From: Flavobacteriaceae bacterium MAR_2010_188
Lineage (GTDB): Bacteria; Bacteroidota; Bacteroidia; Flavobacteriales; Flavobacteriaceae
Direction: 5' to 3'
Length of the DNA stretch: 64,000 bases
Assembly (NCBI GenBank): GCA_900104375.1
Contig: LT629302.1
Coordinates: forward strand, 3,064,001-3,128,000
Part shown: positions 56,512-58,230 of the stretch, piece after piece
Layout: each line of letters starts with the position of its first letter
Position numbering within the stretch: the stretch's first letter is position 1
The notes under the pieces: model-generated
Database searches by the model: none
What the model saw: only the letters and a program-made list of their open reading frames with translations
Told to the model about the DNA's origin: nothing
Position numbers and translations under genes: made by a program

Positions 56512-57852
56512 ATGGAGTTTGTAATTAAAATATCTCAATTCCTTCTAAGTTTATCCTTGCTGATTGTCCTTCATGAAATGGGACATTTTATTCCGGCTAG
56601 GTTATTTAAAACTAGGGTTGAAAAATTCTTCTTATTCTTTGATCTTAAATATGCGCTCTTCAGAAAAAAAATCGGTGATACTGTTTACGGTATCGGCTGG
56701 TTACCACTGGGAGGTTACGTTAAGATTGCCGGAATGATTGATGAAAGCATGGACAAGGAGCAGATGGAAAAACCACCTCAGCCTTGGGAATTCAGAAGTA
56801 AACCGGCATGGCAGCGCTTAATTATTATGTTGGGCGGGGTTACGGTAAACTTCATCCTAGCGTATGTTATTTACGTTTTTATCTCTTTTGCTTACGGCGA
56901 TTCAGACATTAAGGTAGATAGTCTTAAAGGAGGATATTCTATTGAGAACCCAACTTTAAATGAAATAGGATTTAGAACAGGAGACAAAATAATCTCTATC
57001 AACGATAATAAGATTGTAAATGATTCGGACATCAGAAAATATCTGATCGACGCCAATGAGATTACGGTTGAAAGAGATGGAGAAATGAAATCGATTGAGT
57101 TGCCAGAGGATTTCTTGGGGCAACTTTCAAGCGGAAAAGTAAGAGGTTTATTCGACCTTCGGATTCCATTTTTGGTTGCTGAGGTGGCAGACACTTCTGC
57201 AAATAAGGATGCCGGTCTTCTAAAAGGAGATATGATAACTTCGGTAAATGGAAAACAAATTGATTTTTATGATCAGCTTGCTCCAACCTTAAAAGAATTA
57301 AAGAATCAAGAAGTGCCAGCAACTGTTTTAAGGGATGATGAGACTGTTTCTTTGAATCTTAAAGTAGATAACACCGGAAGAATCGGAGTTTTTGCAGGTA
57401 TTGACCCAGATAGATTCGAAAAGATGGGCTATTACGAAAGCATACAGAAAGATTATACTTTGGCACAAAGTTTTGGTGCTGGCTACGATAAATTTACTGA
57501 GACGGTAGGTTCTTACTGGGGTCAGCTTGCTGCAATCGTAAATCCAAGTACAGGAGCCTATAAAGGTGTCGGTGGCTTTAAGGCCATATTCGATATTTTC
57601 CCAGCGACGTGGAGCTGGCAAGCGTTTTGGGCCTTAACCGCCTTTCTTTCTATAATGTTAGCGGTATTGAATCTTTTGCCGATACCGGCCTTAGATGGTG
57701 GTCACGTAATGTTTTTATTGTATGAAATGGTATCGGGTAGAAAACCGAGTGAAGCATTTTTAGAAAAAGCGCAACTCGTTGGTTTTGTGCTATTGATAAT
57801 GCTGGTTTTGTTCGCAAACGGGAACGATATTTTCAAGGCATTTACAAACTAA
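56512..57852 (+). CDS. rseP: Site-2 protease RseP (RIP metalloprotease)
   Basis: A 446-aa inner-membrane zinc metalloprotease that cleaves transmembrane signal proteins, such as anti-sigma factors. The active-site HExxH is residues 21-25 (LIVLHEMGHF), and the third ligand is in NLLPIPALDGGHVMF near residue 390. Two PDZ-like domains lie between (~130-310), with the first more degenerate. Four hydrophobic segments are seen. It is the last protein gene before the tRNA-Asn locus, about 40 bases upstream of the tRNA promoter's -7 element. Confidence 0.93.
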   Translation: MEFVIKISQFLLSLSLLIVLHEMGHFIPARLFKTRVEKFFLFFDLKYALFRKKIGDTVYGIGWLPLGGYVKIAGMIDESMDKEQMEKPPQPWEFRSKPAWQRLIIMLGGVTVNFILAYVIYVFISFAYGDSDIKVDSLKGGYSIENPTLNEIGFRTGDKIISINDNKIVNDSDIRKYLIDANEITVERDGEMKSIELPEDFLGQLSSGKVRGLFDLRIPFLVAEVADTSANKDAGLLKGDMITSVNGKQIDFYDQLAPTLKELKNQEVPATVLRDDETVSLNLKVDNTGRIGVFAGIDPDRFEKMGYYESIQKDYTLAQSFGAGYDKFTETVGSYWGQLAAIVNPSTGAYKGVGGFKAIFDIFPATWSWQAFWALTAFLSIMLAVLNLLPIPALDGGHVMFLLYEMVSGRKPSEAFLEKAQLVGFVLLIMLVLFANGNDIFKAFTN

Positions 57853-57870: not shown

Positions 57871-57901
57871 TTTGTTCAATTTAAAAAATACCATATATTT
57901 G
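57871..57901 (+). promoter_or_regulatory. Promoter of the tRNA-Asn transcript
   Basis: A -33 TTTG (57871-57874), exactly 19 bases, and the -7 TATATTTG (57894-57901) match the Bacteroidota consensus. It is the best promoter in the window. A transcript starting near 57908 would run through two leader modules and the tRNA to the terminator at 58231-58259. Confidence 0.8.
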
Positions 57902-57923
57902 CGCTCGCAAAAGCGGATAACAC

Positions 57924-58140
57924 TCCTCCTTACCTGCCTGCCGGCAGGCAGGGCTCAGCACTGAGCTCTTCTTATAACCGGCACGTATGTAAATTGGAAA
58001 CGTCATAAAAGACGAAAAAATAAATGACCATTCCTCCTTACCTGCCTGCCGGCAGGCAGGGCTCAGAGCTGAGCTCTTCTTTATAACCGGCACGTATGTA
58101 AATTGGAAACGTCATAAAAGACGAAAAAATAAATGACCAT
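57924..58140 (+). repeat. Two tandem ~108-bp tRNA-derived modules with a 20-bp palindrome
   Basis: Two near-identical modules (57924-58031, 108 bp; 58032-58140, 109 bp; two substitutions and one inserted T) lie between the promoter and the tRNA. Each begins with TCCTCCTTA, the first nine bases of the tRNA-Asn, then the perfect palindrome CCTGCCTGCCGGCAGGCAGG (57933-57952 and 58041-58060), then GCTCAG, the next six bases of the tRNA, with CTGAGC completing an inverted repeat. The remaining ~72 bases are identical and do not resemble tRNA. Confidence 0.9.
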
Positions 58141-58214
58141 TCCTCCTTAGCTCAGCTGGTTAGAGCATTTGACTGTTAATCAAAGGGTCCTTGGTTCGAG
58201 CCCAAGAGGGGGAG
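58141..58214 (+). tRNA. tRNA-Asn (GTT)
   Basis: A 74-base cloverleaf folds here. The acceptor stem TCCTCCT pairs with AGGGGGA (one T-G pair), the anticodon stem is TTTGA/TCAAA, the loop CTGTTAA gives anticodon GTT (58175-58177), and the T loop contains GGTTCGAGCC. The discriminator base is G and the CCA end is not encoded. It is driven by the promoter at 57871-57901 through a duplicated leader. Confidence 0.95.
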
Positions 58215-58230
58215 CAAGATTAAAGAAAAG

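Follow-up and report, generated by a model that had tools for sequence, protein, structure and literature searches.

Why should the only asparagine transfer RNA (tRNA-Asn) gene among the tRNAs found in a bacterial genome be preceded by two broken copies of its own start, each interrupted by a perfect palindrome? The locus lies in a 64,000-nucleotide (nt) stretch of Flavobacteriaceae bacterium MAR_2010_188 (contig LT629302.1, positions 3,064,001 to 3,128,000 of the forward strand), hereafter the window; its 3.82-Mb genome is called G000, and G001 is a same-genus relative. Two modules lie in tandem 5′ of the intact tRNA-Asn (58141–58215 or –58214; ARAGORN, Rfam), at 57924–58031 (108 bp) and 58032–58140 (109 bp). 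Each consists of tRNA-Asn nt 1–9 (TCCTCCTTA, identical in both modules and at 58141–58149 of the gene), a self-complementary perfect 20-mer (hereafter PAL), nt 10–15 (GCTCAG), a small hairpin created by CTGAGC two bases after GCTCAG, and a tail (Table 1). The only differences between the modules are a pair of neighboring bases (CA/AG) and one T indel, and a previous reading of the letters without database searches (the sequence-only reading) was right about both their near identity at ~108 bp and this two-base and one-indel difference. No open reading frame (ORF) is listed in the modules, no GIY-YIG gene is present at the tRNA-Asn locus of the window, and no integrase or integrated element lies between the partial and the intact tRNA-Asn. 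In the leader, only the tRNA reached the gathering score of an Rfam family, and the tail had no further match in G000 at E 0.001. As detailed below, the arrangement is real and recurrent, and it is best filed as a new form of endonuclease-linked gene-end duplication.

The sister-genome comparison proposed in the sequence-only reading indicates which part of the locus was added. In G001, a closely similar leader (GCTCGCAAAAGCG...ACAC) is joined straight to an intact tRNA-Asn with no module. Because of this direct junction, the ancestral tRNA start in the G000 lineage was most likely at 57924, and everything from the first palindrome through 58140 would be an addition, unless G001 lost it.

tRNA-Asn is one of many affected genes in G000. 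We surveyed the tRNA places matched by RF00005 with ~1.2 kb of flank each (39 in G000 and 37 in G001; ARAGORN sees 37 tRNAs in each) and counted exact, same-strand copies within 600 nt of the tRNA, using the reversed sequence as the control. Partial copies of at least 11 nt accompany 17 of 37 tRNAs in G000 (control 0/37) and 0 of 37 in G001 (control 0). At 9 nt, the counts are 21 versus 6 in the control for G000 and 3 versus 4 for G001, changing to 23 versus 8 and 7 versus 6 when the distance is extended to 1000 nt. The copies in G000 are polar: at 9 nt, nine 5′ pieces lie upstream and none downstream, and 13 3′ pieces lie downstream and none upstream. Break points concentrate in the D arm and the T arm. 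Specifically, 3′ pieces begin at nt 58–63 in 11 of 13 cases (one each at 64 and 33), and 5′ pieces end at nt 9–11 in seven of nine (the others at 20 and 53); one of these seven, that of tRNA-His, sits in the upstream gene and is perhaps due to chance.

By eye, a palindrome splits or bounds the tRNA copy in 12 of 15 inspected G000 cases, imperfectly for Trp, and no clear palindrome was seen for Arg(TCT), Val(TAC), and Pro(TGG). Its position varies: the D loop in Met (L210; handles of this kind denote loci), where it occurs twice in tandem, the T arm in Phe and Val(GAC), and the T arm of the Ala and Asp 3′ units, each present twice in tandem. Gly(GCC) carries PAL plus a second palindrome, and Leu(CAA) three palindromes. 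The palindromes seemingly fall in the tRNA part and not in the longer spacers (by eye, uncounted), and the units range from about 60 to 470 bp. A GAGAAGTTTAT- or GAGAAGCCTGT-like stretch was noticed by eye before the T-arm palindrome in 3′ units that belong to various tRNAs and genomes (L208, L209, L210, L270, L295, L305, L336, and L348).

The exact junction of the window, with PAL between nt 9 and 10, is found in other genomes as well. A scan of genome contigs for T[AG]-PAL-GCTCAG yielded 57 loci with 59 sites, whose titles point to Bacteroidota or Patescibacteria, except for three that name no phylum (L056, L062, L070). This pattern fixes eight tRNA-like bases, a likeness that is chosen, but agreement of the other seven left-hand bases with the next tRNA was not selected for. 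At 54 of 59 sites, a tRNA on the same strand follows within 300 nt (Asn 24, Thr 9, Trp 6, Val 5, Ile 4, His 2, Gly 2, Met 1, and Leu 1, by ARAGORN), and the first nine nucleotides of the downstream tRNA are matched over at least 8 nt at 50 and in full at 41 of the 59. Four loci (L084, L085, L090, L097) have a tRNA downstream but match it at only 5–7 of nine positions. Where no downstream tRNA was found, the remaining sequence measures 142, 117, 23, and 308 nt at L061, L078, L092, and L070, respectively, and L064 has a GIY-YIG ORF downstream with no tRNA called. CTGAGC or a near form follows GCTCAG in most Bacteroidota cases inspected, and L048 is an exact repeat of the leader plus nt 1–9.

PAL itself is a general dispersed repeat. 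G000 contains 14 exact copies with varied flanks and no copy of the backward-read pattern, and 100 shuffles of the window gave no PAL-like match at up to three mismatches; together with the identical layout in many genomes, these controls rule out chance or artefact. PAL is a tagless perfect 20-mer, lacking a GTAG or CGTC tag, and is present in 16 of 119 genomes of the class. Half of the G000 copies (7/14) lie inside tRNA copies, namely Asn twice, Met, Arg(TCG) three times, and Gly(GCC), the last assigned by eye, though tRNAs make up a tiny share of the genome. The analysis covered 76 distinct sites that were listed and fetched, 14 in G000 and 62 elsewhere, some being near-copies within a genome; three of the 62 lie inside tRNA copies (L130, L153, L154; L153 by eye). 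An A before or a T after PAL occurs at 50 of the 76 sites, a preference too weak to use. An intron-like design, in which PAL would split a complete tRNA, was rejected: deleting PAL from 146 PAL-bearing loci, many of them overlapping, produced no extra ARAGORN tRNA. A Y1 transposase as the mover of PAL was likewise rejected, as G000 has no PF01797 match versus five of 14 control genomes that do. The idea that a palindromic element entered a tRNA copy, which was then duplicated, stands in so far as the modules derive from the tRNA and the copy is split at nt 9|10 by a palindrome of dispersed occurrence.

The tRNA-Asn module also recurs at the orthologous position. The gene upstream of tRNA-Asn in the window is presumably an M50/RseP-type site-2 protease gene (rseP). 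Among Asn-type sites of other genomes, which all carry an intact PAL by search design, the C-terminal end of rseP is found no more than 600 nt upstream in 18 of 22 distinct sites (21 of 25 rows, three of which repeat others), and [CT]CGGC occurs in the tails of 19 of 22 (21 of 25 rows; 1.5% in shuffles). This tail motif (L045, L051, L059, L063, L067, and others) may be what is left of a second palindrome, or it may be an RNA element. Tail identity between hosts averages 0.63 (shuffled 0.50) versus 0.56 for the last 70 nt of the leader, for which no shuffle was made (20 rows, one a repeat), and tail likeness follows host likeness in a weakly positive manner (rho 0.27). In two distant pairs, the tail is shared but the leader is not: L095/L100 (rseP end 0.60, tail 0.83, leader 0.44) and L073/L095 (0.62, 0.79, and 0.42). 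Such pairs are compatible with the module having been transferred or being under selection.

At E 1e-9, the module is matched in four of 199 family genomes, G000 included. A survey of 97 tRNA-Asn genes found 5′ copies upstream of six (five loci, with that of the window; control 0) and 3′ copies downstream of eight (control 1), one of which (L324) is only 9 nt long and may be due to chance. The "recent event" of the sequence-only reading applies at most to the tandem doubling, which looks newer than the unit itself; it does not apply to the module, given its place behind rseP elsewhere, though G001 is plain. Two other tRNA-Asn loci were unusual. At L313 (genome G095), intact tRNA-Asn genes alternate with decayed copies that carry PAL-type and other palindromes, and L027 (G001:1545467) is a lone tRNA-Asn 3′ part in a fetched stretch where ARAGORN calls no intact tRNA.

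Some of the units in G000 encode a GIY-YIG protein. Of 14 PF01541 matches, eight are small ORFs located between an intact tRNA and its partial copies, in single or tandem units (His 2, Arg(TCG) 3, Leu(CAA) 1, Pro(GGG) 2). The others comprise one match broken by stops, three in frames of 463–603 amino acids, and two small ORFs (L194 and L197; G000:3286076 and 3349605), which by eye lie amid other repeats of the GTCATTGCGAG...GAAGCAATC and CTTCGACAGGCTCAGCGTGAC types. G001 has two matches, both in long frames. Behind tRNA-Arg(TCG) of G000 (L003/L231; G000:3632965 to about 3634120) stand three tandem 361-bp units, each made up of a GIY-YIG ORF and the 3′ half of the tRNA, with PAL placed in the anticodon arm. 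In the tandem GIY-YIG units at tRNA-His (L229; about 366 bp) and tRNA-Pro(GGG) (L223; about 471 bp), other palindromes split or border the tRNA 3′ or 5′ pieces. At L295, L309, and L341, from three further genera, tRNA-Asn is preceded by its nt 1–14, an 18-bp palindrome, GGTTAGAGCA, and a GIY-YIG ORF, after which the intact tRNA follows. GIY-YIG genes also adjoin split tRNA-Arg copies in other genomes (L130, L154), occur in a unit pair of genome G190 (L182), and lie near nt-9|10 sites in Patescibacteria (L064, L065, L081, L085). Among 89 family tRNA-Asn loci taken by rank and not picked for GIY-YIG, with G001, G107, G121, and G176 (already seen) and L351 (chosen for PAL) excluded, a GIY-YIG domain lies no more than 450 nt from a tRNA in eight.

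In an unrooted tree of 51 GIY-YIG domains built from 83 columns, one well-supported branch (98/97) sets 31 rows apart from the other 20; with a limit of 450 nt, tRNA linkage applies to 26 of the 31 and to 1 of the 20, and four labels given by eye raise the former to 30, with the ascertainment bias that many of the 31 rows were collected at tRNAs. Four family genomes with the exact 9|10 site have 14, 12, 11, and 10 GIY-YIG matches, against a median of 4 in the other 195 (p = 5e-4); adding two genomes with other PAL junctions (9 and 5 matches) gives p = 4e-4. Two of the GIY-YIG proteins matched no PHROGs family at E 0.001. One of the two resembles TIGR01453, a group I intron endonuclease family, at E 1e-4, under the family cut-off, and the closest PDB matches of one such protein are UPF0213 proteins. 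A hairpin lies within 250 nt of 7 of 20 high-scoring GIY-YIG genes versus 23 of 140 G001 tRNA-locus control windows, a weak difference that was not used. The family genomes G157 and G174 stand out with 26 and 25 GIY-YIG matches, set against the same median of 4. The sequence-only reading had missed this GIY-YIG link, the 3′-side counterparts, and the scale of the phenomenon in G000.

Displaced partial tRNA ends, 5′ pieces upstream and 3′ pieces downstream, adjoin intact tRNAs, and many displaced pieces contain palindromes, at nt 9|10 in the window and in the D loop, T arm, or anticodon arm elsewhere. A like layout exists with a GIY-YIG gene between the displaced piece and the intact tRNA, and those nucleases group together. 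We favor the reading that the modules in the window, which have no ORF, are relics of a selfish unit able to invade tRNA genes while sparing one intact copy, and we give it an even chance of being correct. A nuclease would cut the conserved sequence that tRNA genes share in the D arm or T loop, and repair of the break by recombination would duplicate or replace the tRNA end, keeping a working gene. In the displaced copy, the palindrome would insert at the cut or close to it and destroy the cut site, and the ORF-less unit of the window would later have doubled in tandem. More tentatively, and with appreciable doubt on our part, the units may form an unnamed class of selfish elements in Bacteroidota and Patescibacteria, whose GIY-YIG group would cut conserved tRNA D-arm and T-loop sequence, whose units would rebuild the tRNA from their own end, and whose palindromes would enter at the cut, spread by GIY-YIG enzymes and not by Y1 transposases, with ORF-less units as non-autonomous members.

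Several observations count against a selfish unit. A role of its nuclease at the window's tRNA-Asn locus is drawn by analogy, because no GIY-YIG gene is present there and most partial tRNA copies inspected in G000 have none adjoining. The tRNA link holds for one GIY-YIG group, many rows of which were sampled for their location at tRNAs. Among 20 high-scoring GIY-YIG genes, one per genome, three have a tRNA no more than 600 nt away and two adjoin partial copies; L356 and L372 are among the 31 rows and have partial copies, L371 has a tRNA within 600 nt and neither of these features, and a general link of the whole family to tRNAs was rejected on this count. The small GIY-YIG genes at L194 and L197 have no tRNA nearby, and L064 and L070 lack an intact tRNA in the fetched stretch. 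PAL stands away from tRNAs at 59 of 62 other-genome sites and at 7 of 14 in G000. The sequence-only reading had tied the tRNA origin to palindrome and tail not being ordinary spacers without tRNA likeness; PAL is such a spacer at those seven sites, while the other seven copies, the nt 9|10 layout at many tRNAs, and a tail found nowhere else in G000 speak for the origin it proposed. A foreign tRNA end, which would be the hallmark of homing elements in fungi, was not seen either: a comparison of displaced and intact ends with G001 lent it no support, as the displaced tRNA-His 3′ pieces equaled the intact gene and not G001, and the displaced Asn copy is too short to distinguish a foreign from a native end.

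The main rival explanation, a realistic one although we lean away from it, is plain tandem duplication by slippage or recombination with one end inside the tRNA, followed by insertion of a REP-like (repetitive extragenic palindrome) sequence that survives in the redundant copy, with no nuclease involved and the GIY-YIG genes as passengers. It accounts for the polarity equally well, as any duplication ending inside a tRNA yields it, and the exact repeat at L048, the abundance of PAL outside tRNAs, the lack of an ORF in most G000 copies inspected, the identity of the displaced tRNA-His pieces to the intact gene, and the doubled module of the window, itself a tandem duplication, all agree with it. 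The clustering of break points (11 of 13 3′ pieces from nt 58–63 and seven of nine 5′ pieces to nt 9–11) is less readily explained in this way, and the same applies to palindromes that seemingly prefer the tRNA part over longer spacers, to the 0 of 37 count at 11 nt in same-genus G001, and to one GIY-YIG group being tRNA-linked across two phyla.

We regard as improbable a third explanation, in which the 9-nt copy, palindrome hairpin, D-arm hairpin, and CCGGC tail form a selected processing or regulatory leader of tRNA-Asn. It would explain the module behind rseP in 18 of 22 sites, [CT]CGGC in 19 of 22 tails, tails more alike between hosts than leaders (0.63 versus 0.56), and the frequent CTGAGC or near form, and leader plus tRNA is predicted to fold far below shuffles (z −6.1). 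However, the module occurs in so few family genomes (4/199), G001 has a similar leader without it, and like scars exist on the 3′ side and at unrelated tRNAs. In the predicted optimum, moreover, the 9-nt copy of the leader pairs with the tRNA 3′ end, abolishing the acceptor stem: its seven pairs have a mean probability of 0.00 with two modules or one, versus 0.99 with a 20-nt leader. The 21 cloverleaf pairs reach 0.06 with two modules, 0.02 with one, 0.46 with a 20-nt leader, and 0.44 for the tRNA alone, for which the predictor does not give the full cloverleaf either. The modeled leader would compete with the tRNA fold, so an effect on tRNA-Asn processing, as the sequence-only reading suggested for RNase P, is possible.

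A phage or integrative and conjugative element (ICE) remnant bounded by attL and attR, the usual source of partial tRNA genes, as a complete tRNA and a partial one are typically left behind by integrative elements (PMC9897764), is very improbable here, with units of only about 60–470 bp that lie on both sides, in tandem, palindrome-split, and at nearly half of the tRNA genes, and with no integrase noticed in the inspected stretches, where no profile search for integrases was made.

Table 1 Features of the tRNA-Asn locus in the window.
Feature	Position	Strand	Basis
Upstream gene, marks the orthologous tRNA-Asn locus	56512..57852	+	ORF
Presumed promoter (TTG ... TATATTTG), taken by us to be of the Bacteroidota type	57871..57901	+	Read by eye; CTATATTTGCGCTCGCAAAAGCG precedes tRNA-Asn in G001
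Original tRNA leader, module 1 now behind	57904..57923	+	G001 counterpart closely similar
Module 1: copy of tRNA-Asn nt 1–9	57924..57932	+	Sequence identity
Module 1: PAL at the nt 9|10 junction	57933..57952	+	Self-complementary 20-mer
Module 1: nt 10–15 (GCTCAG) plus CACTGAGC, short hairpin	57953..57966	+	Sequence
Module 1: tail	57967..58031	+	Related tails at other tRNA-Asn genes
Module 2: copy of tRNA-Asn nt 1–9	58032..58040	+	Sequence identity
Module 2: PAL	58041..58060	+	Self-complementary 20-mer
Module 2: nt 10–15 plus AGCTGAGC, short hairpin	58061..58074	+	Sequence
Module 2: tail, abuts the intact tRNA	58075..58140	+	Sequence
Intact tRNA-Asn(GTT)	58141..58215	+	ARAGORN, Rfam

Cells depend on their conserved tRNA genes, and any element inserting there has to preserve a functional gene. 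Here, partial copies accompany nearly half of the tRNA genes of one genome, and related nucleases are found at tRNAs in two phyla. These findings make it possible to test how short palindromes spread with no known transposase, by what route partial tRNA genes arise where no integrase is involved, and whether amplification of tRNA segments of the SegB type acts in bacterial chromosomes. Annotators should be aware that tandem GIY-YIG ORFs and tRNA fragments split by palindromes may go together.

No account of tRNA copies split by palindromes was found among the papers listed in searches of the openly licensed PubMed Central literature, and the PAL sequence itself was unmatched there. Known systems share single traits with the units described here. 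Downstream of E. coli tyrT lie tandem 178-bp repeats, each with the tRNA 3′ end; we know of no palindrome split or GIY-YIG gene in them. Rickettsia palindromic elements insert into genes and, to our knowledge, have no link to tRNA duplication or GIY-YIG proteins. One family of these elements occupies the rpmE-tRNA-fMet spacer (PMC1950309), and, as far as that account goes, the likeness lies in palindromic repeats, while the repeats and the phylum are others. ICEs and phages resemble our units in that an intact and a partial tRNA copy flank the insert; they are large, about 9–23 kb in the archaeal cases given in PMC9897764, compared with about 60–470 bp. REP sequences, with their REP-associated tyrosine transposases (RAYTs), are GTAG- and CGTC-tagged palindromes, the CGTC type having no known dedicated transposase according to the passages on it in PMC3733652. 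PAL is likewise a short dispersed palindrome; it differs in being tagless and inserted in tRNA copies, in a genome without a Y1 (PF01797) transposase match.

Closer are the mobile ORFs (mORFs) of fungal mitochondria (for example, Allomyces atp6 and Glomus atp6, atp9, cox2, and nad3), in which an endonuclease unit brings a replacement gene end (PMC3630166). The native end is displaced beyond the unit and the gene stays whole, as with the displaced end and intact tRNA gene found here. A GIY-YIG gene inside the unit, another mORF trait, is absent at the window's locus and present at tRNA-His, Arg, Leu, and Pro of G000. The mORFs, as presented there, concern protein-coding genes and foreign ends in mitochondria; here, tRNA genes are affected, both ends are used, no foreign end was detected, and the palindrome lies inside the displaced piece, and the passages of PMC3630166 on these units describe no split tRNA copies. 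SegB of phage T6, a free-standing GIY-YIG homing endonuclease of T-even phages, cuts inside tRNA genes and is needed for tandem amplification of a tRNA-containing segment, with a T-loop-like motif, RAWTSGAAC, at 23 of 83 sites (PMC13096335); in our own reading, this motif would be T-loop sequence on the other strand. SegB acts in phage genomes on a full-length tRNA gene, and the passages of PMC13096335 on it describe no palindrome-split partial tRNA copies. A gene beside the tRNA is true of the tRNA-linked GIY-YIG group, whereas the window's unit has none. The likeness, as far as that account reaches, is a GIY-YIG enzyme that often adjoins tRNA genes and cuts within them, and SegB is therefore a published precedent, in favor of the proposed mechanism, for both cutting in tRNA genes and tandem amplification.
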